From Hyphomonas sp. (GTDB taxonomy: Bacteria; Pseudomonadota; Alphaproteobacteria; Caulobacterales; Hyphomonadaceae), in the NCBI GenBank assembly GCA_003486945.1, contig DNFL01000265.1, positions 1 to 12,455 on the forward strand: a DNA stretch of 12,455 nt. The letters are read 5' to 3'. The notes under the pieces are model-generated. The model had not been told where the DNA came from and searched no databases. It was given only the letters and a program-made list of their open reading frames with translations. Every line of letters begins with the position of its first letter. Position 1 is the stretch's first letter. A program made the translations under genes and the position numbers. Below, one piece after another: positions 1 to 12,455 of this stretch.

Positions 1-13
1 GCTCTTCCGATCT
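1..13 (+). other. Illumina adapter remnant at contig start
   Basis: The first 13 bases, GCTCTTCCGATCT, are identical to the 3' end shared by both Illumina TruSeq adapters. Adapter sequence should have been trimmed, so these bases are a sequencing artefact and not genome. Their presence suggests that the left end of this contig rests on poorly filtered reads, which fits the chimeric join near 1960. Confidence 0.9.
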
Positions 14-66
14 AACTTTTTTTAATTTCCTTAAATTATTGCTGGGTATTTCTTTTAATTACCTTC

Positions 67-97
67 TTTGTAATAAAACAGTGATTTTTTTAATTTG
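67..97 (+). promoter_or_regulatory. Bacteroidota-type promoter for the Asp-box protein
   Basis: TTTG at 67-70 is followed by exactly 19 bases and then TTAATTTG at 90-97. The known Bacteroidota promoter is TTTG, 19-21 bases, then TAnnTTTG, so the match has one mismatch (T for A at 91). The predicted transcript would begin about 30 bases before the ATG at 134. There is no Shine-Dalgarno sequence before that ATG, only A-rich sequence, which is also usual in Bacteroidota. The area is very AT-rich, so a chance match is possible. Confidence 0.4.
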
Positions 98-133
98 CGT
101 TAAACAAATTTTTAAATAACTAATCAAAGTAAA

Positions 134-1963
134 ATGAAATTGAAATTTTTATTATTGTTAACATCAGTAATGATCAGTTTTTCAGGCATTAAAGTTTTTG
201 CTCAGCAGGATGTAAATGGCTGGTACTGGATGAATGGCCAGCCCCTGGGACATACCATCAACTGGATAAAAGCTTTTGATGCTGCTAACATCTTTGCAGT
301 AACTAACAGAGGATTATTTATGAAATCAACTGACGGAGGCGACTCATGGATTCTTTCACAGGCAGGCGCTAACGATTTTAGCTCAGGCGCTGACGCAAGA
401 AGAGATTTGTTTACGGGCTGGTTCTTTAATGCAAATACAGGTATAGTAGCAGGCGCAACACAAACAGGACCGACAAAAACAGTTATCAGAAAAACTACTG
501 ACGGCGGTGTTACTTTTACTAACATAGATGTGAATGCCTCTGCAGGTTCATCAGTTAATAATTTTTATTTTATTAATTCTACAACAGGATATCTTTGCGG
601 CGGAACTCCAAACGCGAAATTATACAAGACTACAGATCAGGGAGATACATGGACGAGTATTGCTTCAGCTCCCGCAAATACTTATTACAGTATGCACGCT
701 TTTGATGAAAATAATATTTTACTCGGTACATCTTCAAGAAGAATTGTAAGAACTACTGACGGCGGAACAAGCTGGATCATCGATACTTTATTTTCAGCAG
801 CTACTAACGTTCAGTTCCTCGGTATGAAATTCAAAGATGCAAACACAGGATATGTAATCGGTAACCCGAACTACTTTGCATATACAACAAATGCAGGATT
901 AAACTGGACTGCTTCTACACATTCTTCCATCAGAGGACAGAGAGCGATAGAATATGATAACGGAGTTGTTTGGACAGCCGGTGATTATGAATATGTCTAT
1001 TTTTCATCTAATAACGGAGTCAACTGGGATTCGGTGAAGTTTTATGATAACAGTAATGTCAATCAGCCGTCACCTTTTATTATTTATGCTTTAGGTGTAA
1101 ACGGTAATGATCTCTCAGTCGGAGGTCAAAACGGACAATTGACTTTAAGTAATGACGGGGGAGTAACATGGAGAAATAAAAATTACACTGTTCATCCCAA
1201 TGCTCCGACCTATTCCAGTATTTACGCTGAGTCACCGACAGGAAATATCTGGATCGGATCAAATATTATCGGCGAAACAAACTTTCTGTATTCCAGTAAC
1301 GGCGGCACAAACTGGACAACTCAGCCAAACGGCATGAGTTTTGCTGTTTATGGAATGGATTTCTCAAGTGCTAATACCGGTTATGCATACGGCGGAAGAG
1401 CTACTTCGGGAGTCGGACAAATGTCAAAATCAACAGACGGCGGAATGACTTGGTTTGCTCTTGGATTACCTGCGCCGTTAAGCACATATCAGATTAATAC
1501 TGCTGACTTTGTAAACGATGTTACAGGTTGGGCAGGAGGTTTTGCAGGACCATTCTCACCGGCGTTAGTTTCTAAGACAACTGACGGAGGAAATACCTGG
1601 AATACACAGACATTAGAAACAAGTCCTAACGGTTCTGTAATCAGCATTCAGATGATTGATGAAAACAATGGATTTTTACTTGGTAACTCTTTATATACAA
1701 CTACAAACGGCGGAACTAACTGGTTAAAAACTACAAACTCATATGTACTCACTACGGGCTGGTCAAATATGTTTGTACTAAATAAAGATGTTATTTATTT
1801 AAACGGAGCCGGAACAAGCGGACTTAAAAAAATAATCAGATCACTTGACGGCGGAGCTACATGGACGGATATTACTTCCAATCTCGCCGGCGCAGCAGGA
1901 ACTACAATATTCAAAACAAAATGGCTCAATCTTAAGCACGGTATTGTAATCGGAGCCAGCGGA
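134..1963 (+). CDS. Secreted Asp-box (BNR/YCF48-like) repeat protein, C-terminus lost at a chimeric junction
   Basis: Probable secreted beta-propeller protein of unknown ligand. It begins with a signal peptide: basic MKLK, a hydrophobic stretch of about 15 residues, then VFAQ with cleavage likely near residue 23-24. I count twelve Asp-box-like motifs of the form S/T-x-D/N-G-G-x-T/N-W, for example STDGGDSW, TTDGGTSW, STDGGMTW, TTDGGNTW and SLDGGATW. Between them are phrases such as NTGYVIG and GIVIGASG, typical of the YCF48/photosynthesis-system-II-assembly-like proteins abundant in Ignavibacteria and Bacteroidota. The open frame runs on to 2011, but residues after GIVIGASG (about 1961 onward) come from reading the next, unrelated DNA out of frame. 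The natural protein would be longer, perhaps ending in a type IX secretion sorting domain. Codons are AT-rich, unlike everything downstream. The family call is firm; the function is unknown. Confidence 0.85.
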
Positions 1964-1968
1964 TGGTT
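1955..1968. other. Chimeric junction between AT-rich and GC-rich genomes
   Basis: Up to about 1960 the plus-strand frame reads as a normal Asp-box repeat protein with AT-rich codons. From about 1963 a different frame reads as a GC-rich alanine-rich coiled coil. Base composition, codon use and translation-initiation style all change within about 15 bases. No transposase, terminal repeat or integrase lies at the boundary. An assembly or library chimera explains this better than a natural transfer, above all because adapter sequence sits at base 1. The exact base cannot be fixed because the two genes may share a few bases of microhomology here. Confidence 0.85.
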
Positions 1969-2943
1969 GCCGAAGAAGCGGCCCGCGCCGCGGCCGCCCA
2001 GGCTGAAGTGAAGCGCCTCGCTGACCTCGAAACCCAGCGTCTCGCTGACCTTGAAGCGAAACGGCTCGCTGATCTTGAAACCAAGCGGATTGCCGCTGAA
2101 GCCGAAGCCAAACGGCTTGCCGATCTGAAGGCAAAGGAAGCGGCTGAAACCGCCGAGGCGAAACGCCTTGCCGATCTCGAAGCGAAACGCGCGGCAGATG
2201 CAGAAGCGAAGCGTCTCGCCGATCTTGAAGCCAAGCGCCTCGCCGACCTCGAAACGAAGCGCCTTGCTGATCTCGCCGCGAAGGAAAAAGCTGAGGCAGA
2301 AGCGGTCCGTGTCGCTGCGCTCGCGGCATCTGCGGCGCCTGCTGAGCCGCGCCGTCTGTCGGTGCCGCCCGCCGGTGCGCCGTCGCTGAAGCCCAAACGT
2401 CCGGCTACGGAGCAAGCCCTTGCCGAAGCGGGCGGCCCGACCTTGTTGTCCGCTATTCCGACAGAGCGCCCCGCGCCGCCGGCGCTCACCGCACCTTCAC
2501 CGGAGGTGCGCCCGCTCTCCCTGCCGCGCCCGGTTGGGGATTTCATCGCCGAGCGTACGGAATACACGGCTGGCCGCGCGCTGGATCAGGCCGGGCTGAA
2601 TGTGCTCAAGGCAGATTTCCTCGCGCTCGTCGAAGGCAGCGCCGACGGCACGCACCACGAACTGACCACGCCGGATGGCCGCCCGCTGCTGATCCATTTC
2701 GAGCGGACGGTGCCGGTCGATCCGCTGAAGGCCAGCATCAATGCCATCGGCTATGCTCCGTCGACGGATGGCGCCGTCGTGCGCCCTTATCTCCAGCCGG
2801 TCAGTGTAAACGTGCATGTCATGTGCCGCGACGTCGCTTATGCCTTCCCGGGCCAGGAGCGCGGGCGCTTCGCCGCCTGTCAGGGCGATGACGGCACCTG
2901 GCGCATGGCCCGCGCCACCAACATTGCCGCCAACCCGGTTTAG
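1963..2943 (+). CDS. Coiled-coil protein with KRLADLE octapeptide repeats, probably 5'-truncated
   Basis: I do not recognise a named family. Counting from the ATG at 1963 (326 residues), residues 1-16 are Ala/Glu-rich. Residues 17-114 are about twelve 8-9-residue units based on KRLADLEA/T, which should form a long charged helix or coiled coil. Residues 120-190 are Pro/Ala-rich and look like a flexible linker. Residues 191-326 look like a folded C-terminal domain with Cys288 and Cys306, a possible disulfide pair if exported. No signal peptide or membrane helix is visible. The first codon lies right at the chimeric junction, has no Shine-Dalgarno site, and the helix-like composition begins at once. 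The true start, and any export signal or anchor, was therefore probably upstream and is missing. A cell-envelope role is a guess. Confidence 0.6.
   Translation: MVAEEAARAAAAQAEVKRLADLETQRLADLEAKRLADLETKRIAAEAEAKRLADLKAKEAAETAEAKRLADLEAKRAADAEAKRLADLEAKRLADLETKRLADLAAKEKAEAEAVRVAALAASAAPAEPRRLSVPPAGAPSLKPKRPATEQALAEAGGPTLLSAIPTERPAPPALTAPSPEVRPLSLPRPVGDFIAERTEYTAGRALDQAGLNVLKADFLALVEGSADGTHHELTTPDGRPLLIHFERTVPVDPLKASINAIGYAPSTDGAVVRPYLQPVSVNVHVMCRDVAYAFPGQERGRFAACQGDDGTWRMARATNIAANPV
2011..2304 (+). repeat. Tandem ~24-27 bp coding repeat (KRLADLE units)
   Basis: Roughly twelve degenerate 24-27 bp units lie head to tail inside the coiled-coil gene, each encoding a variant of KRLADLEA or KRLADLET. 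The protein period is better kept than the DNA: synonymous bases differ between units, as in cgcctcgctgac against cggcttgccgat. This points to old duplications under selection for the helix. Such repeats can expand, contract or be collapsed in short-read assemblies. Confidence 0.85.
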
Positions 2944-3008
2944 CTGACCGATTGCCGCGCGCCGCCGCCGCATTGCGCGCCGCCGCGAAGCCTGCGACAG
3001 GGTGCGCC

Positions 3009-3347
3009 ATGACGATGCGGGTCTACAAATTGCTGACCGAAACGGACTGGAACGCTGCAGAGGCATCCGGCCGCACGTCCTCAGCCGTCGATCTTGCGGA
3101 TGGCCATGTGCACCTCTCCACTTCGGCGCAAGTGAGGGAAACCGCACGGCGCTATTTCGGCGGCGAGGGGCGCGTGAAACTCCTGCGCTTCGATCCGGAT
3201 ACACTCGGCGATATCCGCTGGGAGGCCAGTCGCGGCGGCGATCTGTTTCCGCATCTCTATGGAGCGCTGATGATCGCCAAGGCCGAAGCCAGCTGGTGGC
3301 TCTTGCCCGGCGCAGACGGCGCGCTCGTGTTTCCGGAGGATATCTGA
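3009..3347 (+). CDS. DUF952 family protein
   Basis: Small protein of 112 residues, the usual size for the DUF952 family. Its biochemical function is not known; an enzyme-like fold has been suggested for the family, but no reaction is established. Family marks visible are the start VYKLLTETDW, the block DGHVHLST at residues 31-38, an LLRFD strand near 58-62, and RWEASRGGDLFPHLYG around 70-84. The ATG at 3009 gives the conserved start; the open frame continues slightly upstream, but that extension does not resemble the family. The stop codon shares its last base with the pyrD start (TGATG), so the two are probably co-transcribed and coupled. A DUF952 gene next to pyrD is a recurring alphaproteobacterial arrangement, from memory. 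Confidence 0.85.
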   Translation: MTMRVYKLLTETDWNAAEASGRTSSAVDLADGHVHLSTSAQVRETARRYFGGEGRVKLLRFDPDTLGDIRWEASRGGDLFPHLYGALMIAKAEASWWLLPGADGALVFPEDI

Positions 3348-4396
3348 TGCTCGCCGATCTCGCCGCGAAAGCCGCGCACCTCCTGCCGCCAGAAGCGGCG
3401 CACGTGGCAACCGTCCGTGCGCTGAGCAAAGCGCTCGGTGTTCCCGCTAAGCCGCCGGCCTTTCCGACGAATATTGCGGCCGTGCTGCCGAAATCCGGCC
3501 TGAAGCTTGCTTCGCCTGTCGGCCTAGCGGCGGGCTTCGACAAGAATTGCGAAGCGCCCGAGGCAATGGCGCGGTTCGGCTTTGGCTTTGTAGAATGTGG
3601 CACGGTCACGCCAAAGCCGCAGCCCGGCAATCCAAAGCCGCGCGTCTTTCGCCTGACGGAAGATCGCGCCGTGATCAACCGGATGGGCTTCAACAATTTC
3701 GGACTTGAGTTCTTTGTGCGCCGCCTCGCGAAGTATTCCCATCTCGTGCCCATCGGCGCGAATGTCGGCGCGAACAAGGACAGCGAAGACCGTATTGCCG
3801 ACTATGTTACCGGCATCAACGCCGTCGCACCGTATGCGGACTATATCACCATCAACATCTCCTCGCCCAACACACCCGGTCTGCGCGGCCTGCAGGACAA
3901 GGCTTCGCTCGCTGCGCTGCTCTCCCGCTGCGCAGATGCGGACAGGAAGGCAAAGCCTGTTTTCCTGAAAGTTGCGCCGGACCTTGATGCCGAGGCCGTC
4001 AGCGACATCTGCGGCGTTGTGAAGGCCGAGGGCGCCTGGCTCGCCGGCCTCATCATCTCGAACACGACGCTTGCGCGCCCCGAAAGCCTGAAGAGTGCGG
4101 AGAGGGGCGAGGCAGGCGGCCTTTCCGGTGCGCCGCTCTTCCATCCGTCTACGGAAGTGCTGCGCCTCTTCGCGCGCCAGCTCGGCGGCGCGTTCGATCT
4201 CATCGGAGCAGGCGGCATCGCATCCGGCGCAGATGCCTACGCCAAAATCCGCGCGGGCGCGAACGCCGTGCAGCTCTATTCCATGATGGTCTATGAAGGC
4301 CCCGGGCTCGCCTTGCGCGTCGCACGCGAGCTCAGTCATTGCCTCGAAAAGGATGGCCTTGCCACCCTTTTCGAAGCGGTGAGCAAGGACCTCTAG
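3347..4396 (+). CDS. pyrD: Dihydroorotate dehydrogenase (quinone), class 2
   Basis: Oxidises dihydroorotate to orotate, the fourth step of de novo UMP synthesis, passing electrons through FMN to membrane quinones. The product has 349 residues, close to the E. coli enzyme. Visible marks are the N-terminal helical part (about 1-40) that serves as the quinone tunnel in class 2 enzymes, PVGLAAGFDKN at 57-67, the NRMGFNN motif at 111-117, and NISSPNTPGLR at 170-180. The catalytic base is expected at Ser173, by alignment with E. coli Ser175. Also present are FLKVAPDL near 206-213, ISNTT at 237-241, GGLSG at 257-261, and the FMN-phosphate region IGAGGI near 286-291 and VQLYS near 308-312. The start at 3347 overlaps the DUF952 stop by one base. 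The stop abuts the stop of the convergent dehydrogenase with no spacer. Confidence 0.97.
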   Translation: MLADLAAKAAHLLPPEAAHVATVRALSKALGVPAKPPAFPTNIAAVLPKSGLKLASPVGLAAGFDKNCEAPEAMARFGFGFVECGTVTPKPQPGNPKPRVFRLTEDRAVINRMGFNNFGLEFFVRRLAKYSHLVPIGANVGANKDSEDRIADYVTGINAVAPYADYITINISSPNTPGLRGLQDKASLAALLSRCADADRKAKPVFLKVAPDLDAEAVSDICGVVKAEGAWLAGLIISNTTLARPESLKSAERGEAGGLSGAPLFHPSTEVLRLFARQLGGAFDLIGAGGIASGADAYAKIRAGANAVQLYSMMVYEGPGLALRVARELSHCLEKDGLATLFEAVSKDL

Positions 4397-5497
4397 CTAG
4401 CTCAGCACCACAACCTGGCGCGCCACCGAGCCTTTGTTGTCCTTGAGGTTCTGCATCGCCGCCGTGATGCCATCGAGGCCGATCCGGTCGGAGATGAGAT
4501 CATCAAGGTGCAGCCGGCCCTGCTTGTAGAGGTCAACGAGACGCGGGAAATCGACCCGGAACCGGTTCGATCCCATCACCGCGCCCTGAAGGCGCTTCTC
4601 GGTCACCAGCAATTCGATGCCCGGAATTTCAATGTTCACGCCGGGCTGAATCATGCCGATGATCGTCGCCACGCCGCGCGGGCGCAGCATGTGATAGGCC
4701 ATCTCGGCGGTCTGCTTCGCGCCGACGCATTCAAAGGAATAGTGCACGCCGCCCTTGGTGATCTCCTTCACCTTCTCGATGGCATTGACCTTCGAAGGAT
4801 TGACCACTTCGGTCGCGCCAAAGCGAACCGCGAGCTGCAGCTTCTCGTCGGAGAGGTCCACCGCGATGATCCGGCTCGCGCCCGCAATCGCTGCGCCGTT
4901 GATCGCCGCAAGGCCCACGCCGCCGCAGCCGATCACGGCGACTGTCGAGCCCGGCTCAACCTGCGCCGAATGGAACACCGAGCCGACGCCAGTGATCACG
5001 CCGCATCCGATCAGCGCCGCGCGGTCGAGCGGCATGTCCTTGTCGACCACGCAGAGCGTGTTCTCGTGCACGAGGATCTGCTCGGCAAAGGAAGAGAGGT
5101 TCAGGAACTGGCCGACCTTTTCCTTGCCGATGGAAAGCCGCGGCGCTTCTGTCGGTGCGCGCTGGAACTGTTCGCGGTTCACGGTGTGGCAGACGGACAT
5201 ATGGCCGGTGAGGCAATATTCGCAGGTGCCGCAGAAGGGCGAGAGGATGGAGATCACATGATCGCCCGGCTTCACCGCCGAAACCATCGAGCCGACTTGC
5301 TCCACCACGCCCGCGCTCTCATGGCCGAGGATCACCGGCAGCTCTGCCGGAAAGGCGCCGTCCCAGAAGTGCACGTCGGAATGGCAGACGCCGATCGCCT
5401 TCAGCCGGACCAGAACCTCGCGCGGTCCCGGCTTCGAGATCGTCACGTCCTCAATCGACAACGGCGCCTTCGGCGCCCGCATCACGGCGGCTTTCAT
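4397..5497 (-). CDS. Zinc-dependent alcohol dehydrogenase (MDR family)
   Basis: Medium-chain dehydrogenase/reductase of 366 residues, expected to oxidise an alcohol with NAD+ in the cytoplasm. Catalytic zinc ligands are visible as Cys38 (GVCHSD), His59-Glu60 (GHESAG) and Cys165 (GCGV). Structural zinc ligands are Cys89, Cys92, Cys95 and Cys103. The Rossmann loop is GCGGVG at 190-195, and Asp214 at the end of the second strand favours NAD over NADP. The layout resembles the class III/NDMA-dependent ADH branch, but the substrate cannot be read from sequence. The ATG at 5497 is supported by AGGA (5510-5507) nine bases upstream. It lies 82 bases downstream of the MmyB-type regulator on the same strand, so the two may share a transcript or a regulatory circuit. 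Confidence 0.93.
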   Translation of the reverse strand: MKAAVMRAPKAPLSIEDVTISKPGPREVLVRLKAIGVCHSDVHFWDGAFPAELPVILGHESAGVVEQVGSMVSAVKPGDHVISILSPFCGTCEYCLTGHMSVCHTVNREQFQRAPTEAPRLSIGKEKVGQFLNLSSFAEQILVHENTLCVVDKDMPLDRAALIGCGVITGVGSVFHSAQVEPGSTVAVIGCGGVGLAAINGAAIAGASRIIAVDLSDEKLQLAVRFGATEVVNPSKVNAIEKVKEITKGGVHYSFECVGAKQTAEMAYHMLRPRGVATIIGMIQPGVNIEIPGIELLVTEKRLQGAVMGSNRFRVDFPRLVDLYKQGRLHLDDLISDRIGLDGITAAMQNLKDNKGSVARQVVVLS

Positions 5498-5579
5498 GGC
5501 TCACATTCCTCCCGGGTCATATTTTCCGGAAGCATCGCGCAGCGCAGGCATTTTGGCCAGCGTGACGCAGGGTGAGGGT

Positions 5580-6377
5580 TCAGAGCGCGGCTATCGCGCG
5601 AAGGGCAATCCGGGTCGGCTCATCAGCGGGGAAGAGGAGTTCGAGGCGCAGGTCGCGCACGGTCACGTCCTCGCTGGTTCCGAAATGGGCAACCGTCGAG
5701 AGGAATTTCAAGGCGCCGCCCGGCGTGTGGATTTCCAGCGGCACTAGCGGCCGGCGCGTCGCCAGAACCGGCGGATGGCGGGCGATGGCGGCGTCGAGGT
5801 CAGCGATCAGCGCTGCCAGCTCGCTGTCGCCGGGCGCTTCCAGCGCTTCCAGCGCAATCCGCCCGCGCATTTCGGCCAGCACTTCGGGAAGGTTCGCGAT
5901 CAGCTCCGGCGCAGCCGGCGAGGCCGTCAGCATACGGATCAGGCTCGTCTCGCCGCTGCCCTGAAGTGGGGCGAGCAGGGCGAGCGCGGCGGCATTCGCG
6001 TCGCGAACGCGCCAGTGTCGGTCGGCGAGGATTGCCGGCCAAGGCGCATGCCGGTCCATCATTTCCTGCAGCACAGCCCGGAACGGTCCGAGCGCATCGG
6101 AATCAAGCGGCGTCGCAGGAAACAGCGGCGCAAAGCCCGCCGCCTGAAGCAGCGCATTGCGGCTCGCCAGTGGCAGGATCAATCCGTCGGAAAGCTGCAG
6201 CACCATCTCGCGGCTCGGTTTCGCGCGGCCGGTTTCAAGGAAGGAAAGATGGCGCGCCGAAACATTGCAGTCGAGCGCCAGGTCAAGCTGGCTCATCCTC
6301 CGCGCGCCGCGAAAATGGCGCAGCAGGCGGGCGAAGGCGTCTTCACCGTCAAGGGCTGGCAGGATTGCATCGATCAT
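5580..6377 (-). CDS. XRE-type transcriptional regulator with MmyB-like ligand domain
   Basis: DNA-binding regulator of 265 residues. Residues 14-70 form an XRE helix-turn-helix (core RMSQLDLALDCNVSARHLS, then FLETGRAKPSREMVLQLSDGL). Residues about 90-255 match the MmyB-like ligand-binding domain, a PAS-like fold: APWPAILADRHWRVRDANAA at 111-130 and the C-terminal block ending LKFLSTVAHFGTSEDVT. Members of this family are thought to sense small hydrophobic ligands, and they often sit beside dehydrogenase genes. Here an alcohol dehydrogenase lies downstream on the same strand and a small membrane protein is divergent, so both are candidate targets, with autoregulation likely. A palindrome suited to a dimeric regulator lies 33-49 bases before its start. 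The ligand is unknown. Confidence 0.9.
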   Translation of the reverse strand: MIDAILPALDGEDAFARLLRHFRGARRMSQLDLALDCNVSARHLSFLETGRAKPSREMVLQLSDGLILPLASRNALLQAAGFAPLFPATPLDSDALGPFRAVLQEMMDRHAPWPAILADRHWRVRDANAAALALLAPLQGSGETSLIRMLTASPAAPELIANLPEVLAEMRGRIALEALEAPGDSELAALIADLDAAIARHPPVLATRRPLVPLEIHTPGGALKFLSTVAHFGTSEDVTVRDLRLELLFPADEPTRIALRAIAAL

Positions 6378-6410
6378 GACGCATCGTCTCAGGCCGCCGC
6401 GCCTAAGTCC

Positions 6411-6427
6411 ATAACCTCCGAGGTAAT
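6411..6427. promoter_or_regulatory. Candidate operator palindrome of the MmyB-type regulator
   Basis: The sequence ATAACCTCCGAGGTAAT is an odd-centred inverted repeat. The core ACCTC-C-GAGGT (6414-6424) is perfect apart from its unpaired centre, and two of the three outer pairs also match (A-T and T-A). It lies in the 106-base space between the divergent regulator and membrane-protein genes, where an autoregulatory operator would be expected. XRE dimers bind such sites. Assigning it to this regulator is inference from position and symmetry. Confidence 0.5.
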
Positions 6428-6428
6428 T

Positions 6429-6444
6429 GCGGCGCCTACGCCGC
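6429..6444 (+). promoter_or_regulatory. Short GC hairpin upstream of the membrane protein
   Basis: GCGGCG-CCTA-CGCCGC forms a perfect 6 bp stem with a 4-base loop, directly after the candidate operator and 39 bases before the start codon at 6484. It could fold in the 5' leader if transcription starts upstream of it. There is no following T-run, so it does not look like a terminator. It may simply reflect GC-rich sequence. Confidence 0.25.
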
Positions 6445-6471
6445 TTCGGTCATCCTTGCGCCCATCAAAGC

Positions 6472-6478
6472 AAGGAGG
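6472..6478 (+). promoter_or_regulatory. Strong Shine-Dalgarno site fixing the membrane protein start
   Basis: AAGGAGG lies five bases before the ATG at 6484. It fixes this ATG as the start, in preference to the upstream in-frame ATG at 6427 inside the intergenic region, and suggests efficient translation. Confidence 0.75.
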
Positions 6479-6483
6479 CTCCG

Positions 6484-6912
6484 ATGAGCAATTTCTGGAA
6501 AACATGGATGCAGATCTGGTGCTGGGGCGTCATTCTTTTCGGCGCTGTGTTGGCAGGTGGCGCCTTTCCCGCAACTGACGCCGCCGTCCGCACGCTGTAT
6601 TCAATTCTGGGCGGCGCGCCCGCAACGCCGGAAATGTTCGATGCGCCTGGCATGCGCTTCTCGGTCGGGCTGATGGGCGCGGTTACGCTCGGCTGGGGCG
6701 CGACGATCCTTGGCCTCTTGCCCGCTATCCATCAGGCCGGCGCCCCGGCATGGCGCGGGCTGACGCTTGCCCTCGCCATCTGGTTCGTCATCGACGGCGC
6801 AATCTCGGTGGCCACCGGCTACGGGCTCAACAACCTGCCGAACACGGCGCTGGCAGCCCTCTACTTCATCCCGGTTCTGACGACCGGCGTCCTGAAACGC
6901 AGCGCCGGCTGA
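6484..6912 (+). CDS. Small four-helix membrane protein, unknown function
   Basis: I do not recognise a named family. The 142-residue product has four hydrophobic stretches, at about 11-30, 59-81, 91-111 and 119-137, so it is most likely an inner-membrane protein. The N-terminus is Trp-rich (FWKTWMQIWCWG), and a polar loop of about 28 residues separates helices one and two. There are no charged residues in the helices apart from Asp104, so transport cannot be inferred. It has a very strong ribosome site and is divergent from the MmyB-type regulator, with a palindrome between them; regulation by that protein is the best contextual guess. Its stop lies two bases from the stop of the convergent alkaline phosphatase. 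Confidence 0.8.
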   Translation: MSNFWKTWMQIWCWGVILFGAVLAGGAFPATDAAVRTLYSILGGAPATPEMFDAPGMRFSVGLMGAVTLGWGATILGLLPAIHQAGAPAWRGLTLALAIWFVIDGAISVATGYGLNNLPNTALAALYFIPVLTTGVLKRSAG

Positions 6913-6914
6913 TC

Positions 6915-8495
6915 TCAGTCTGCGGGTGCCGCAACAAGGCCCAGCGCGCGGGCCATGATGTGGTAGATCTCGTTCTGCTCGATCACGCCGGTCATCAGGT
7001 TGGCGCCGGGCCCGGAAGCGAAGGCGGCAACGTCTTCGCCGCCGTGCGTTTCGGAATAGAGCGGCACGAGGGCGGGCTGCCGGAAATCGGGGTCGTAAGT
7101 ATCGGTGTTGGTCAGGTCCTGCCGGGCACAGTCCCAGATGTCCTTGCCGTCTTCGCCTTTGCCTGAAACGCGGCAGGCGCCAGGGCCGTTGGCATAAGAC
7201 AGCGTTGTGTAAGGCATGCCATCTTCTGCGATCGAGCCGCCTTCTCCGCCGAGGCCCGATACCGCAAGCCCGAGGATCGGATTGCCGCGCTGCGGATAGC
7301 CCGCAATGCTCAGCGTGTGCGAATGGTCCGCCGTGACGATGATCAGCGTCTCTTCCGGGTTCGTCATTTCCAGCGCCGCGGCAACCGCGGCATCAAACGC
7401 CATCGCATCTTCAAGCGCGCGGATGGCATTGCCGCCATGGTGCGCATGGTCGATACGTCCGCCTTCCACCATCAGCACGAAGCCTTCCGGGTTCTGCGAC
7501 AGACGGGTGATCGCTGCGCGGGTCAGGTCTGCGATATGCGGCTCGCCGGCCTTGTCCTTCGCGCGGTCGAGTTCGAACTGCATGTGTGAGGGCTCGAACA
7601 GGCCGAGCAGTTTCACATCCGAAACAAAGTCGATGGCTTCGAATCCAGCCTTGTCGAAAACGAACTTGTGCTTGTCGGATTTGGCAGTCCATTCGCCGAT
7701 CAGGTCGCGGCCATCCGTGCGTTCGCCGGACTTGCCTTCATATTCCGGGTCCGGAGTTTCCTTTGGCAGGAACTTTTCGCGCCCGCCGCCGAGCACAATG
7801 TCGAAGTCCACGGCCGTCGTTTCGATGAACTGGCGGGCGATATCCTTGCACGCATCCGAAGAGGCACCGCGCATATCGCTGTCGGCCTCCCAGTTGCGGT
7901 GCACGACTTTCGAGTAGGTGGCTGCCGGTGTCGCATGGGTGATGCGGGCGGTGGAAACAAGGCCTGTGGCCAGCCCGGCGCGCGAGGCGAATTCGAAAAC
8001 GGTGTCGGCTTCATTGCCGGGCAGGGTGGCGCAATTGCCGAAGCCGACCGCACTGGTCACGCCGAGAACGCCGGAGAGCGTCTTCATGCCGCTGACCATC
8101 GCCGCCGCCGTGCCGGCGGAATCGGCGACCTGGAAATTGTGGCTGTAGGTTTTCGACAGCGCCGAATAGGGCAGCGAATCCATCGCGAGGTGATGGCTCT
8201 CGCCGTCTTCGCCGGCAGACTGGCCGGCATAGATGCGCGCGGCGGTGATGGTGGAAATGCCCATGCCGTCGCCGATGAAGAGGATGACATTCTTCGCCGG
8301 CTTGATCCCGCGCGCTGCGATGCGCGCCTCCACGGCCGCTTCGGCGGCGAGGTAATAGCTGTCGCCGGACTGCAGGGCGATGAAGGTTTCGCGTGCGGGA
8401 ACGATGGTGGCTTCGGCGGAAGGCGCTGTTCCATCGGATTGGCAGGCGCCGAGCGCGGTGAGAACAGCAAGGCTGGCAATGAGGGCAGGGCGCAT
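6915..8495 (-). CDS. Alkaline phosphatase, predicted lipoprotein
   Basis: Metal-dependent phosphomonoesterase of the PhoA superfamily, 526 residues, releasing phosphate from organic esters outside the cytoplasm. The N-terminus is a lipoprotein signal (MRPALIASLAVLTALGAC) with lipobox LGAC and acylation expected at Cys18. Active-site residues visible are Asp76 (FIGDGMG), nucleophile Ser126 (ADSAGTAAAM), Thr189 (HATPAA), Glu344, Asp349 and His353 (VEGGRIDHAHH), Asp390 and His391 (TADHSH), and His484 (ETHGG). His187 and His350 replace E. coli Asp153 and Lys328, as in mammalian-type enzymes and many marine bacterial ones. A low-conservation insert lies at about 245-290. It is the third gene of a minus-strand series after gluQRS and the transporter, with a 64-base gap holding a PHO-box-like site, so it probably has its own promoter. 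Confidence 0.96.
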   Translation of the reverse strand: MRPALIASLAVLTALGACQSDGTAPSAEATIVPARETFIALQSGDSYYLAAEAAVEARIAARGIKPAKNVILFIGDGMGISTITAARIYAGQSAGEDGESHHLAMDSLPYSALSKTYSHNFQVADSAGTAAAMVSGMKTLSGVLGVTSAVGFGNCATLPGNEADTVFEFASRAGLATGLVSTARITHATPAATYSKVVHRNWEADSDMRGASSDACKDIARQFIETTAVDFDIVLGGGREKFLPKETPDPEYEGKSGERTDGRDLIGEWTAKSDKHKFVFDKAGFEAIDFVSDVKLLGLFEPSHMQFELDRAKDKAGEPHIADLTRAAITRLSQNPEGFVLMVEGGRIDHAHHGGNAIRALEDAMAFDAAVAAALEMTNPEETLIIVTADHSHTLSIAGYPQRGNPILGLAVSGLGGEGGSIAEDGMPYTTLSYANGPGACRVSGKGEDGKDIWDCARQDLTNTDTYDPDFRQPALVPLYSETHGGEDVAAFASGPGANLMTGVIEQNEIYHIMARALGLVAAPAD

Positions 8496-8531
8496 GGGTC
8501 GGTCTCCGGCGGTGTCTCTTTGAAACGCCTT

Positions 8532-8549
8532 AGCGCAGGATCATGACAG
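8532..8549 (-). promoter_or_regulatory. PHO-box-like site upstream of the alkaline phosphatase
   Basis: Read on the minus strand, the sequence is CTGTCAT-GATC-CTGCGCT, ending 36 bases before the phosphatase ATG. The known PhoB box has two 7-base direct repeats close to CTGTCAT separated by 4 bases. The first half matches 7 of 7; the second matches 4 of 7 at the correct 11-base period. Position and target gene fit phosphate-starvation control. The weak second half keeps confidence moderate. Confidence 0.45.
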
Positions 8550-8559
8550 TGGCGACCCG

Positions 8560-9474
8560 TTACGGGGCGGGAGGCGCTTTCGGTTTCTGGCGCTGGGCAA
8601 GCCAGACGGCGACCAGGATTGCGCCCGCACCTGCGGCCTGGATCGTCGTCAGCGGCTCCTTGAACAGGCCCCAGGAAATCGCAGCGGCAACCACTGGCTG
8701 GGCGAGAACAAGGATTCCGGCAATGGCAGTATCGGTGGAGCCGAGCCCGGAAATGATCAGGCCTTGCCCGGCCACCTGTACGATAATCGCCAGCGCCAGC
8801 GGCATCGCGAAACCGGCCAGCGTCGCGGGCATGAACCGCTCGCCCGAAAGCGCCACGATGAGGAAAGCCATGCCGGCTTCGAACACGCTCAGCCAGAACA
8901 TCGCCTCAACCCCGCCGAGCGTGCGCCGCGCGAGTTTCGAGAACAGCATGTAGAAGGACACGAACACCGCGGCTGCCAGCGCGAGCAGATCGCCCCGCAG
9001 CGCGCCGCCGGTCAAAACCTTTCCGCCGAGCGACAGCGCCGCCGCGCCTGCAACAGCGAGTACGGCCGCAACCGCCCAGTTCATTCCCGGCCGTTCCTTC
9101 AGGAAAGCCCAGGCCGCAAGGCCGACGAGAACATTGCCGAGGTTCACGATGAAGGTGGCGTTCGAGACGCTCGTCATCGTCAGGCTCCAGTGCCAGAGCG
9201 CCATGTCGAGCGTGAAGAAGAGGGCGGCAAGGAAAACCGCGCGGTTCGGCTTGCCGGGAAGGCGCCGGTCAACCACCAGCACGAGAACGAACAGCATCGG
9301 CACCGCGAACAGGTAGCGCCAGAAGGCAATCGCCTGCGGGCCGAGATCGTCGAGACCAAGGCGCAGGCCGATCGGCGCGAAGCCGAGCGCAATGCCGCCG
9401 CCAAGCACCATCAGCGGGCCAAGCCAGGGACGGTGTTCTTTGACGGGGCGAGGCTGCGGAACGGTGTTGGTCAT
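8560..9474 (-). CDS. EamA-family (DMT superfamily) transporter
   Basis: Integral inner-membrane protein of 304 residues with about ten hydrophobic helices arranged as two repeated five-helix EamA halves (about 18-150 and 160-294). The first half ends with LKERPGMNWAVAAVLAVAG; the second has the matching FKEPLTTIQAAGAGAILVAV, the usual family signature at each half's end. Members export or import small metabolites such as amino acids or nucleotides; the substrate here is unknown. The ATG overlaps the gluQRS stop by four bases (ATGA, 9471-9474), implying translational coupling. This gene order makes it a probable gluQRS operon partner, although no functional link is established. Confidence 0.93.
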   Translation of the reverse strand: MTNTVPQPRPVKEHRPWLGPLMVLGGGIALGFAPIGLRLGLDDLGPQAIAFWRYLFAVPMLFVLVLVVDRRLPGKPNRAVFLAALFFTLDMALWHWSLTMTSVSNATFIVNLGNVLVGLAAWAFLKERPGMNWAVAAVLAVAGAAALSLGGKVLTGGALRGDLLALAAAVFVSFYMLFSKLARRTLGGVEAMFWLSVFEAGMAFLIVALSGERFMPATLAGFAMPLALAIIVQVAGQGLIISGLGSTDTAIAGILVLAQPVVAAAISWGLFKEPLTTIQAAGAGAILVAVWLAQRQKPKAPPAP

Positions 9475-10319
9475 CCGGCGCGCGTCATTGCGCGAATATC
9501 GTCCGGCGTCATCCCTTCTTTTCTGAAGTCGCTGAGACTTTTGTCCCCGAACCGTTTCGACAGCTTCTTTCCGTCCGGCCCGAGGATCAGCGGATGGAAA
9601 TGATAGACAGGCTGCGGCCAGCCCATCAGGGCCTGAAGCAGGGTGTGAACCGAAGTCACTTCCCGCAGATCTTCGCCGCGGATGATGTGGGTGACGCCCT
9701 GCAGGGCATCATCATGGCAGCAGGCGAGATGGTAACTTGCCGGCGTATCCTTGCGCGCGAGCACGACATCGCCAAACCGTTCCGGCCGGGCAGGCACGGT
9801 GCGAAGACCCTGCCGGTCGGCCCAGACGGCATAGCTGAGGGTGTCAAAGGCCGGGCCCAGCTCTTCCCGCGCGGCGGCCAGTGACAGGCGCCAGGCGAAG
9901 GGCGCGTTGTGTGCCAGCCGCCGCTCTTCTTCCTCCGGTGCCAGCGGGTGGCTGACGAGGCCGCCTTCATCCGGATCGGCCCCGGCGGGCAGGCGCGCGG
10001 CAATCTCGCGCCGGGTGAGAAAACAGCGGTAGACAAGCCCCCGCGCGCGAAGCGCGTTGAGTGCGGCTTCATACTCGGCAAAGTGCTCCGACTGGCGGCG
10101 CACCGCGCCCGACCAGCGAAGTCCCAGCCAGGCAAGGTCCTCGTAGATGCCGGTTTCGTAGTCCGGCCGGCACCGGGTCTGGTCAATATCCTCGATCCGG
10201 AGAAGCACTTCTGCACCGGTTACCGCCGCCTCGTCCCAGACCGCAAAGGCGGAGGCGGCGTGCCCAAGGTGCAGGCGTCCGGTCGGGGAAGGGGCGAATC
10301 GGGTGCGGAACAGGGCCAT
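9471..10319 (-). CDS. gluQ: Glutamyl-Q tRNA(Asp) synthetase
   Basis: Also called GluQRS or YadB. It activates glutamate and attaches it to queuosine at position 34 of tRNA(Asp). The 282-residue protein is a GluRS-like catalytic domain without the anticodon-binding domain, the defining difference from GltX. Motifs seen are FAPSPTGRLHLGH (HIGH-type, 8-20), RIEDIDQTR (41-49), RGEDL (214-218) and KKLSKR (KMSKS-type, 251-256). In E. coli the enzyme carries a zinc site made of three Cys and one Tyr; here only Cys99 remains near that place, so zinc is probably absent. I chose the ATG at 10319 because the family begins a few residues before TRFAPSPTG; the open frame runs back to 10499, but that part is unlike the family and overlaps the divergent gene. 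Confidence 0.93.
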   Translation of the reverse strand: MALFRTRFAPSPTGRLHLGHAASAFAVWDEAAVTGAEVLLRIEDIDQTRCRPDYETGIYEDLAWLGLRWSGAVRRQSEHFAEYEAALNALRARGLVYRCFLTRREIAARLPAGADPDEGGLVSHPLAPEEEERRLAHNAPFAWRLSLAAAREELGPAFDTLSYAVWADRQGLRTVPARPERFGDVVLARKDTPASYHLACCHDDALQGVTHIIRGEDLREVTSVHTLLQALMGWPQPVYHFHPLILGPDGKKLSKRFGDKSLSDFRKEGMTPDDIRAMTRAG

Positions 10320-10322
10320 CAG

Positions 10323-10351
10323 ATTACAGGAACAGCGTTTCCTTGTTGCAA
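10323..10351 (-). promoter_or_regulatory. Candidate sigma-70 promoter for gluQRS
   Basis: On the minus strand TTGCAA (10351-10346) is followed by exactly 17 bases and then TGTAAT (10328-10323). The -10 element has one mismatch to TATAAT and the -35 two to TTGACA. Only three bases separate the -10 from the ATG at 10319, so transcription would begin at or within the start codon. This means a leaderless message or a false match. No clear Shine-Dalgarno site precedes this ATG. Confidence 0.35.
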
Positions 10352-10371
10352 GGATTTGGTAAGAAACGTAT
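10343..10371 (+). promoter_or_regulatory. Weak candidate promoter for the 10400 gene
   Basis: TTGTTG (10343-10348), 17 bases, then ACGTAT (10366-10371) is a weak sigma-70-like pair, placed 28 bases before the ATG at 10400. It overlaps the -35 region of the opposing gluQRS promoter candidate. If real, the two divergent genes would compete for polymerase. Confidence 0.2.
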
Positions 10372-10399
10372 CGCCTTGAGGCGTGAGAGGGTAGCTCTG

Positions 10400-11467
10400 A
10401 TGTTGATCGCCGGCTGGCTTGAGACCGCCGATAAGTGGCTGAAAACAAACGTGCCGGGGTCCGAATGGCTGGACCTCGTCGGCGCGGGCGTTGTCGCATT
10501 TGCTGCCGTCCTTGCCTTCCTCTGGCTGACCGGGCGTGTCCTCAGGGTCACAGCCTCCATTTACAACGCCGCCAAGGCGCGCGCCGCGAAGGCGAGCAAG
10601 TCGCCCGGTTTCCGCATCCTGCTGGCCAAGCCGGAAGGCGGCCTCAGCCGGCGCACCGACAAATGGCTGACGCAGGCGCTGACCGCGAACCTGCCGATTT
10701 ATGCGTTCGGCGCACCGTTCACCCTCGTTCCCATGGGTCGCATCAAGGGCGGGCTCGAAACCGCATCGGTCGCCCGCGCACGCAAGCGTATGGCGATTGC
10801 CGACGCCGACCTGTTCGTCTGGGTCAGCCGGCACGGCAAGGGCGAGCGCGGCCTAGAGCTGCACGGCCTCAGCCGCGGCGGCGGTCTTTCGCCGGCAGAT
10901 GCCCGCCTCTTCACCATTGCCCTGCCGGGCGCGCGCAAGGCGCAGACGGCAGAAGTCGCCCGCGTTGCGGCTTATCTCATCGCCAAGCAGCTGCAGCCAG
11001 CGCTCAGCGATCCGCAGGCGTTCCGCGCCGAAAAGATCCGCGACCTTGCCGCCGAACTCGACAGCGTGATGACCGCCGATCTGCCGGTCTCGCAGACGCT
11101 GCGCTCGGAAATCGAGGCGGACTATTGCGCCGCCGGTGTGCGCGTCGCCGAAGAGCTTGGCGAATTGTCCGCACTCGACAAGGTGATCCAGCTGCGCCGC
11201 CGACATCTTGAGGAAGCCAACCTCAAGGCCGATACCGGCCGCATCATCCAGGCCAAGCTCGAACTCGGCCGTGCGTTGATCGTGCGCGCCGAAAAGCAAT
11301 TCGATCAGGCTGTGGTGAAAGAGGCGATCATGCACCTCGCCGCCGCCGTGGAAGGCCTGCGCGCCGATCCGACCATCCAGCGCGCGCAGTCAGCATCTGA
11401 TGCGCTGTTCAAGGCGCAGGCGATGATCGAATCGCGCAAGCGCTTTTCGCTGAACTTCGGGTCGTAG
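10400..11467 (+). CDS. Membrane-anchored protein with helical-repeat C-terminus, unknown function
   Basis: No named family recognised. The 355-residue product has one hydrophobic helix near residues 26-44 (LVGAGVVAFAAVLAFLWLTG) followed by basic residues (RVLRV, then AAKARAAKASK). It is probably a single-pass inner-membrane protein with its bulk in the cytoplasm. Residues about 70-190 look like an alpha/beta domain (FRILLAKPEGG, DLFVWVSRHGKGERGLELHG). Residues 200-350 are almost wholly helical with Ala/Leu/Glu patterns that resemble TPR-type repeats, without a clear consensus. ATG 10400 is chosen because GAGAGGG (10385-10391) lies eight bases upstream; the longer open frame overlaps gluQRS and looks non-coding. 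It is divergent from gluQRS and ends six bases from the msrA stop. A scaffold or signalling role is a guess. Confidence 0.8.
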   Translation: MLIAGWLETADKWLKTNVPGSEWLDLVGAGVVAFAAVLAFLWLTGRVLRVTASIYNAAKARAAKASKSPGFRILLAKPEGGLSRRTDKWLTQALTANLPIYAFGAPFTLVPMGRIKGGLETASVARARKRMAIADADLFVWVSRHGKGERGLELHGLSRGGGLSPADARLFTIALPGARKAQTAEVARVAAYLIAKQLQPALSDPQAFRAEKIRDLAAELDSVMTADLPVSQTLRSEIEADYCAAGVRVAEELGELSALDKVIQLRRRHLEEANLKADTGRIIQAKLELGRALIVRAEKQFDQAVVKEAIMHLAAAVEGLRADPTIQRAQSASDALFKAQAMIESRKRFSLNFGS

Positions 11468-11473
11468 CGGGAT

Positions 11474-12130
11474 TTATCCCACCTTCACCGGAGGAAGCGG
11501 ACAGCTCACACCCGTGCCGCCAATCCCGCAATAGCCGTTCGGGTTCTTGGCAAGGTATTGCTGGTGGTAGCCCTCGGCGAGGTAGACTTCCGTACGCGGA
11601 GCAAGATCTGTCGTCACCGCGGCGCGGTGGCCGGCAGCGGCCAGCTCGGCATTGTAGGCGGCGATCATCTCGCGCGCGGCCTGCTCCTGCGCCGGCGAGG
11701 CGAAGTAGAGGGCTGAGCGGTACTGCGTGCCGACATCATTGCCTTGGCGCATGCCTTGCGTCGGGTCATGGCTTTCAAGGAAGAGTTTGACGAGCGCGGC
11801 GAACGAGACCTTTGCCGGGTCGAAGATCACCTCGACAATCTCGGTATGGCCGGTGCCGCCGGAGCAGACTTCCTCATAGGTCGGGTTGGGCGTGAGGCCG
11901 CCGGCATAGCCGACACGGGTCAGCCACACGCCCGGGGTCTGCCAGAACAGGCGCTCGGCGCCCCAGAAACAGCCAAGGCCGAACACGGCCGTCTCGAAGC
12001 CGGCAGGGGCTTCGGCCTCCAGCGGCAGGCCGGAAACGTAGTGGACACTGGCGGTCGGGATGGGCCGGGCGCGGCCGGGAAGGGCAGTTTCGGCGGTGGG
12101 CAGGGCAAGGGGCTTGCGGGAGAACAGCAT
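11474..12130 (-). CDS. msrA: Peptide-methionine (S)-S-oxide reductase
   Basis: Repairs oxidised proteins by reducing methionine-S-sulfoxide to methionine, regenerated through thioredoxin. The 218-residue product matches the E. coli-type MsrA in length and layout, including an N-terminal extension of about 45 residues. Catalytic Cys54 lies in GLGCFWGAE (52-60). Also visible are GYAGG at 74-78, the HDPTQ block near 121-125, and the C-terminal resolving cysteines Cys201 and Cys210 in [13 protein letters not shown], equivalent to E. coli Cys198 and Cys206. The ATG at 12130 is chosen over an in-frame ATG at 12184 because AAGGAGG sits nine bases upstream. Convergent with the unknown membrane-anchored gene and divergent from tRNA-Ser. 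Confidence 0.96.
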
Positions 12131-12139
12131 GGGGCAGTC

Positions 12140-12146
12140 CCTCCTT
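12140..12146 (-). promoter_or_regulatory. Shine-Dalgarno site fixing the msrA start
   Basis: On the minus strand AAGGAGG (12146-12140) lies nine bases before the ATG at 12130. It decides against the upstream in-frame ATG at 12184, whose extra 18 residues are polar and not expected in the family. Confidence 0.75.
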
Positions 12147-12149
12147 TCG

Positions 12150-12165
12150 GTCCCAGATATGGGAC
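12150..12165. promoter_or_regulatory. Perfect inverted repeat in the msrA leader
   Basis: GTCCCA-GATA-TGGGAC is a perfect 6 bp inverted repeat with a 4-base spacer, four bases upstream of the msrA Shine-Dalgarno site. It could be an operator for a dimeric repressor or a hairpin in the messenger leader that affects ribosome access. No known regulator consensus is recognised. Confidence 0.4.
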
Positions 12166-12192
12166 TTCTGCGCTCTTGCGGCAATCACGTGC

Positions 12193-12221
12193 TTGCGAGG
12201 GGCGGGCGCATCCGGTATCTG
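12193..12221 (+). promoter_or_regulatory. Possible tRNA-Ser promoter
   Basis: TTGCGA (12193-12198), 17 bases, then TATCTG (12216-12221) is a partial sigma-70 match followed by GGCCGC. A GC-rich discriminator of this kind is usual for stable-RNA promoters under stringent control. Transcription would start about 20 bases before the tRNA. The -10 matches only 3 of 6. Confidence 0.3.
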
Positions 12222-12248
12222 GGCCGCTTCCTGCCGCAGGGCGGGTGC

Positions 12249-12338
12249 GGAGAGGTGGCCGAGTGGTCGAAGGCGCACGCCTGGAAAGTGTGTAGACGGG
12301 AGACCGTCTCCAGGGTTCGAATCCCTGTCTCTCCGCCA
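12249..12338 (+). tRNA. serT-GGA: tRNA-Ser(GGA)
   Basis: Serine tRNA of 90 bases with encoded CCA. The acceptor stem GGAGAGG pairs with TCTCTCC, with one terminal G-T wobble. The anticodon stem-loop is CACGC-CTGGAAA-GTGTG with anticodon GGA at 12283-12285, reading UCC and UCU. The long variable arm AGACGG-GAGA-CCGTCT is diagnostic of class II serine tRNAs. The T arm is CAGGG-TTCGAAT-CCCTG, and the discriminator base is G as seryl-tRNA synthetase requires. It stands alone in the window; the following sequence resembles a mobile-element end. Confidence 0.97.
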
Positions 12339-12347
12339 GCACTGAGC

Positions 12348-12455
12348 TGTCCGACCCGGACACATAGGTCACAGAATGTTCCGGAGAGATAGGGTACACT
12401 TTCGCCCCGAACGGGTTGTCGACAGTTTGTAGTGTCCTTGCCTCGAGATCAACGT
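12348..12455 (+). mobile_element. Possible left end of an IS481-like insertion sequence (partial)
   Basis: Ten bases after the tRNA an inverted repeat TGTCCG-ACC-CGGACA (12348-12362) begins a stretch with two related direct-repeat units, ACATAGGTCACA (12362-12373) and AGATAGGGTACA (12387-12398), 25 bases apart. From memory this resembles the leader before IS481-type transposase genes in Alphaproteobacteria. A GTG at 12432 opens a frame reading MSLPRDQR to the window end; a DQR motif occurs near the start of such transposases. Only 24 coding bases are present, so this stays tentative. The short hairpin has no T-run, making a tRNA terminator less likely. Confidence 0.3.

Follow-up and report, generated by a model that had tools for sequence, protein, structure and literature searches.

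The results of our analysis indicated that the window, a 12,455-nucleotide stretch that forms the end of a contig recorded under Hyphomonas sp., was almost certainly an artificial join of an Ignavibacteria-type piece and a Hyphomonadaceae-type chromosomal stretch. Our comparisons showed that the two halves came from different genomes and that the genes meeting at the join were both cut there, because the left-hand gene continued beyond this point in a genome carrying the left piece (G001) and the right-hand gene started upstream of it in four of four relatives. The fused gene that the contig appeared to encode was most likely not a real biological feature.

The left piece occupied positions 14 to 1966 on the forward strand. 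All 1,953 bases were identical to contig C39 of G001, starting at position 13071 of that contig, with 0 mismatches. In G001, the gene remained intact past the join point and encoded an 839-residue Asp-box/YCF48-like protein; the window held the first 611 codons of this gene (positions 134 to 1966, forward strand), and the other 228 codons were lost at the join. Pfam searches of the left ORF returned PSII_BNR (PF14870, E-value 2.9e-25), Sortilin-Vps10, and BNR. A second genome of the same genus, G002, matched residues 1 to 839 at 72% identity and was collinear with G001 over positions 726 to 4805 of locus L011, a region that spanned the join point at L011 position 4024 (72% over 4,141 aligned columns). 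Full-length relatives stood at the top of the homologue list, as exemplified by P0002 to P0006 (839 to 844 residues, 65 to 71% identity), and some match to the left protein with an E-value of up to 0.001 was found in 40 of the 40 genomes searched, many of these matches being partial or weak. The organism was named for 17 of the 120 left-protein homologues listed: 16 were Ignavibacteria or Ignavibacteriae and one was Bacteroidetes. These results agreed with the original prediction, which had described the left part as a Bacteroidota/Ignavibacteria-style Asp-box protein. The right part of the window (positions 1963 to 12455) was absent from G001, except for two matches of 87 to 88 bases to a tRNA-Ser gene.

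The C-terminal part of P0001 that was lost at the join (residues about 660 to 839, or about 175 residues) recurred at about 40 to 57% identity in many ORFs of very different length from the same lineage (G001, G002, G003, G011, G012, and others, among the matches listed). No Pfam match of P0001 had its best stretch in residues about 660 to 839. This part may be a shared C-terminal module of a sorting or dockerin-like kind.

The right piece extended from position 1967 to position 12455, with no strand assigned, and its features were those of a Hyphomonadaceae-type chromosome. According to Pfam, its genes included those for DUF952, dihydroorotate dehydrogenase, a zinc alcohol dehydrogenase, an HTH regulator, alkaline phosphatase, an EamA transporter, a Glu/Gln-tRNA synthetase-like protein, and MsrA; a tRNA-Ser was located at positions 12249 to 12338. 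The first ORF of the piece (positions 1963 to 2943, forward strand) comprised the C-terminal 326 codons of a Hyphomonadaceae-type coiled-coil gene that had 623 to 643 codons in relatives and no Pfam match. This ORF matched at least six loci in the genome contigs (L012 to L017). At five of these loci, L012 to L016, the right part was found in the same order, with about 70 to 80% DNA identity in the main matches. In the whole genomes, the same order was seen in five of five, and the main matches were 70 to 81% identical. A single contig carried these matches in four of the genomes, whereas in the fifth they were distributed among three, and in one of the four one-contig genomes the contig ended inside the coiled-coil gene, where the matches began. 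The same-order matches reached about position 12341, and the last 115 or so bases of the window had no match in the genomes of L012 to L016. In the case of L017, the protein identity to the 326-residue ORF was 34%, and no DNA match to the window was found at E-values up to 1e-5. The left part of the window had no DNA match in any of the loci L012 to L017.

To place the native start of the coiled-coil gene, we used L012 to L015, in which the ORF starts were taken mechanically and the proteins had 623, 641, 643, and 643 residues, respectively. L016 was left out of this count because it begins inside the coiled-coil gene, as was L017, a weak match. The first residue of the window's ORF aligned to residues 307, 325, 314, and 314 of the four proteins; the native start thus lay 306 to 324 residues farther upstream in four of four relatives, and the ORF matched the last 317 to 330 residues of the relatives' proteins, with 207 to 219 identical residues. 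The ATG at position 1963 is therefore not the native start of the gene. The closest protein to this ORF, P0121 (90% identity), likewise extends upstream of the join, as shown by its stretch ADRIAAEEAARAAAAQAEAKRL. When the proteins of relatives were searched for the join motif, the match was to another repeat of P0121, and this result was set aside.

For alkaline phosphatase, the closest protein was P0141 (99% identity), and 17 of the 19 homologues that named an organism, among 120 listed, were from Hyphomonas. This count favored the alphaproteobacterial origin that had been proposed for the right part; against it stood the titles of three of the five collinear records, which were of the Acidobacteria type, the other two being titled Hyphomonas or Hyphomonadaceae. 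Specifically, L013, L015, and L016 were titled Candidatus Sulfopaludibacter or uncultured Acidobacteria. Their gene order was that of the Hyphomonas and Hyphomonadaceae records, and all five collinear records were among the 105 genomes of one family group, which included the Hyphomonas record, so these titles look wrong. Part of positions 1967 to 5000 was matched in 104 of the 105 genomes of this family (that of G042). The family matches of at least 1.9 kb, among those listed, were 71 to 77% identical, and the most similar one was 86% identical over about 600 bases; the 105 genomes did not yield the exact right-hand parent. We saw no further joins in positions 1967 to 12455, as the same-order matches of L013 and L016 covered most of positions 1969 to 12221; this check extended to about position 12341 of the window.

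The position of the join followed from the reading frames and the alignments. The reading frame changed at this point: a 625-residue ORF (positions 134 to 2011) and the 326-residue ORF (positions 1963 to 2943) overlapped in different frames. Identity to contig C39 stopped at position 1966, and the aligned sequences diverged from position 1967 on. The right-hand frame was identifiable from about positions 1960 to 1963 by comparison with L012 to L015. Specifically, positions 1960 to 1962 formed an arginine codon in this frame, and arginine was found at this place in four of four relatives; it was followed by Met-Val-Ala-Glu-Glu in the window, compared to Arg-Ile-Ala-Ala-Glu-Glu (arginine included) in all four relatives. 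The left-hand identity up to 1966 and the right-hand frame from about 1960 to 1963 together placed the join (an unstranded feature) within about positions 1960 to 1967, a stretch of about 8 bases to which the alignments confine it. The exact base was ambiguous because the right-hand parent's own bases were not found. The alignment to L014 began at position 1960 and that to L012 at position 1950, both to the left of 1967; the L012 start was taken as a low-identity extension that slightly blurred the right-hand boundary. At most 7 bases, CGGATGG, may have been common to both parents at the join, a putative microhomology, since the right-hand side could be compared in relatives only.

The original prediction of an abrupt switch at positions 1940 to 1980 was borne out by the alignments, which placed the join inside this interval, and by the changes in GC content and frame. 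Some of its details were sharpened: the change, said to occur within about 15 bases, was narrowed to about 8 by alignment, and the left part, said to end at about 1955 to 1960, was identical to the left parent slightly farther, up to 1966. The predicted artefact at the C terminus of the 625-residue product was located in its last 14 residues. Residues 1 to 611 of this product are genuine and residues 612 to 625 are artefactual, the tail being 14 codons and a stop read in the wrong frame (positions 1967 to 2011, forward strand), as indicated by the comparison of ORFs and frames.

The composition of the DNA also changed at the join. The GC content was 0.36 to 0.43 in 500-base windows up to position 2000 and 0.61 to 0.69 in those from position 2001 on. 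A comparison of tetranucleotide profiles, which had been proposed as a check, separated the two parts clearly: the correlation of the left part with the right part was -0.26, that of the left part with L012 was -0.28, and that of the right part with L011 was -0.28. On their own sides, the values were 0.85 (left part and the rest of L011) and 0.98 (right part and L012). As a control, 18 of 18 pieces of 1,953 bases from the right part were compared to the rest of that part, and the correlations were 0.93 to 0.96. A Markov change point based on composition alone fell at about position 1948, some 12 to 18 bases to the left of the aligned boundary. Separate protein searches of the two halves, which had likewise been proposed, led to Ignavibacteria-type relatives on the left and Hyphomonadaceae-type relatives on the right.

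An assembly or library chimera had been put forward as the likeliest cause of the switch, and our results upheld this idea, as each half had a lineage of its own in which the gene extended through the join point, as seen in G001 and G002 for the left half and in L012 to L015 for the right half. With regard to the kind of chimera, a physical one from library making or amplification is probably responsible, because so few bases can be common to the two parents at the join. Two DNA fragments would have been physically linked in the course of library making or amplification, either by ligation or by template switching aided by a microhomology of a few bases (no more than CGGATGG); sequencing and assembly of the resulting chimeric molecule would then have followed.

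The main rival, which we consider possible but clearly less likely, is that no chimeric molecule existed and that the assembler or scaffolder wrongly bridged two contigs. Assembler k-mers are longer than the few bases that may be shared at the join; this short overlap argues against such a bridge, as does the lack of any N in positions 1 to 3500. The location of the join is in favor of it, since the nearby contig end has an adapter-like remnant and assembly is fragile at such places. A library chimera and an assembler join could not be firmly told apart.

The remnant consisted of bases 1 to 13, GCTCTTCCGATCT, which we take to be the end of an Illumina adapter left in the contig. The match was exact, was located at base 1, and was on the forward strand; on the reverse strand it corresponded to the read-through form. 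It was the sole match in the window when up to 2 mismatches were allowed. Because a match with 2 mismatches was found somewhere in 69 of 200 shuffled sequences, we placed weight on the exactness of the match and on its position at the very end; the chance of finding this 13-mer at base 1 was about 6e-9 to 1.5e-8. The G001 sequence differed at 11 of these 13 bases, and the 13-base string had 0 occurrences in the 241,816 bases of the compared loci, some of which overlapped. In the literature, the string was present in 2,222 papers. The left part had been counted from base 14 in the original prediction, which fit the start of the left match, but the adapter in bases 1 to 13 had not been named. 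The adapter is located at the outer contig end and not at the join; it is a library residue and no proof of how the join arose.

A natural and very recent recombination or horizontal transfer that joined the two DNAs at a short microhomology is very unlikely. One point leaves room for it: the evidence from G001 goes no further than the existence of the left parent in unjoined form as well. Against it are the great distance between the two lineages, the 1,953 bases that are 100% identical to a genome with an intact gene, and the truncation of both genes at the join. The region around the join also had none of the structure of a mobile element, in keeping with the claim that no such hallmark was present. 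There were no inverted repeats of at least 14 bases in positions 1700 to 2300, and the only direct repeats in this region were the coiled-coil repeats from position 2005 on. A Pfam scan of 12 ORFs of the window revealed no integrase or transposase, and 3 of these ORFs had no match of any kind. We therefore rejected a mobile element at the join, for which neither terminal repeats nor an integrase or transposase was found, and a natural fusion gene was ruled out because the frame differs between the halves and neither gene is complete.

Searches for the join in other genomes gave no match. Among the left parent's relatives, 0 of 40 had the exact join (32-base pattern), and in the right-hand family the count was 0 of 105 genomes (26-base pattern); together, none of the 145 genomes in which exact patterns were sought had it. 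A 38-base pattern of the join was absent from viral contigs, and positions 1866 to 2066 had no match in plasmids. The absence of the exact join from all 145 genomes argues against a natural recombinant, although it was a limited test, which covered exact patterns only, in these two groups of genomes and in viral contigs. The search on the right side was weak, since relatives at 70 to 80% identity would miss the pattern even if they had the join.

The idea that the window is correct and that the assembly errors lie instead in contig C39 and in the right-hand relatives, for which we found no supporting point, has a negligible probability, as it is contradicted by the full-length genes of G001 and of the left relatives (P0002 to P0006), the collinearity of G002 with G001, and the intact right-hand gene in four of four relatives in which the start was covered.

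The significance of an artificial join is one of quality control only. In its present form, the 625-residue product is unfit for protein databases; a split of the contig at about position 1966 and the trimming of positions 1 to 13 are advisable. If it were taken as real, the contig would falsely suggest an interphylum transfer and leave a genome bin contaminated.

Each half of the fused ORF had a counterpart among known proteins. Residues 1 to 611 of the left ORF belong with the Asp-box/YCF48-like (PSII_BNR) proteins of Ignavibacteria, but the native gene is longer by 228 residues, which were lost at the join. The right ORF corresponds to the last 317 to 330 residues of a coiled-coil protein of Hyphomonadaceae in which the C-terminal region is conserved, whereas the first 306 to 324 residues of that protein are missing from the window. 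As a whole, the window, known here from its assembled sequence alone, resembles what we take to be its closest parallel, the chimeric contigs that arise from library or amplification artefacts in metagenomes, and we saw no departure from this kind. As in those contigs, sequences from two unrelated genomes meet at a single point, where they may overlap by a few bases, both genes are cut, and an adapter-like remnant is found at the end of the contig.
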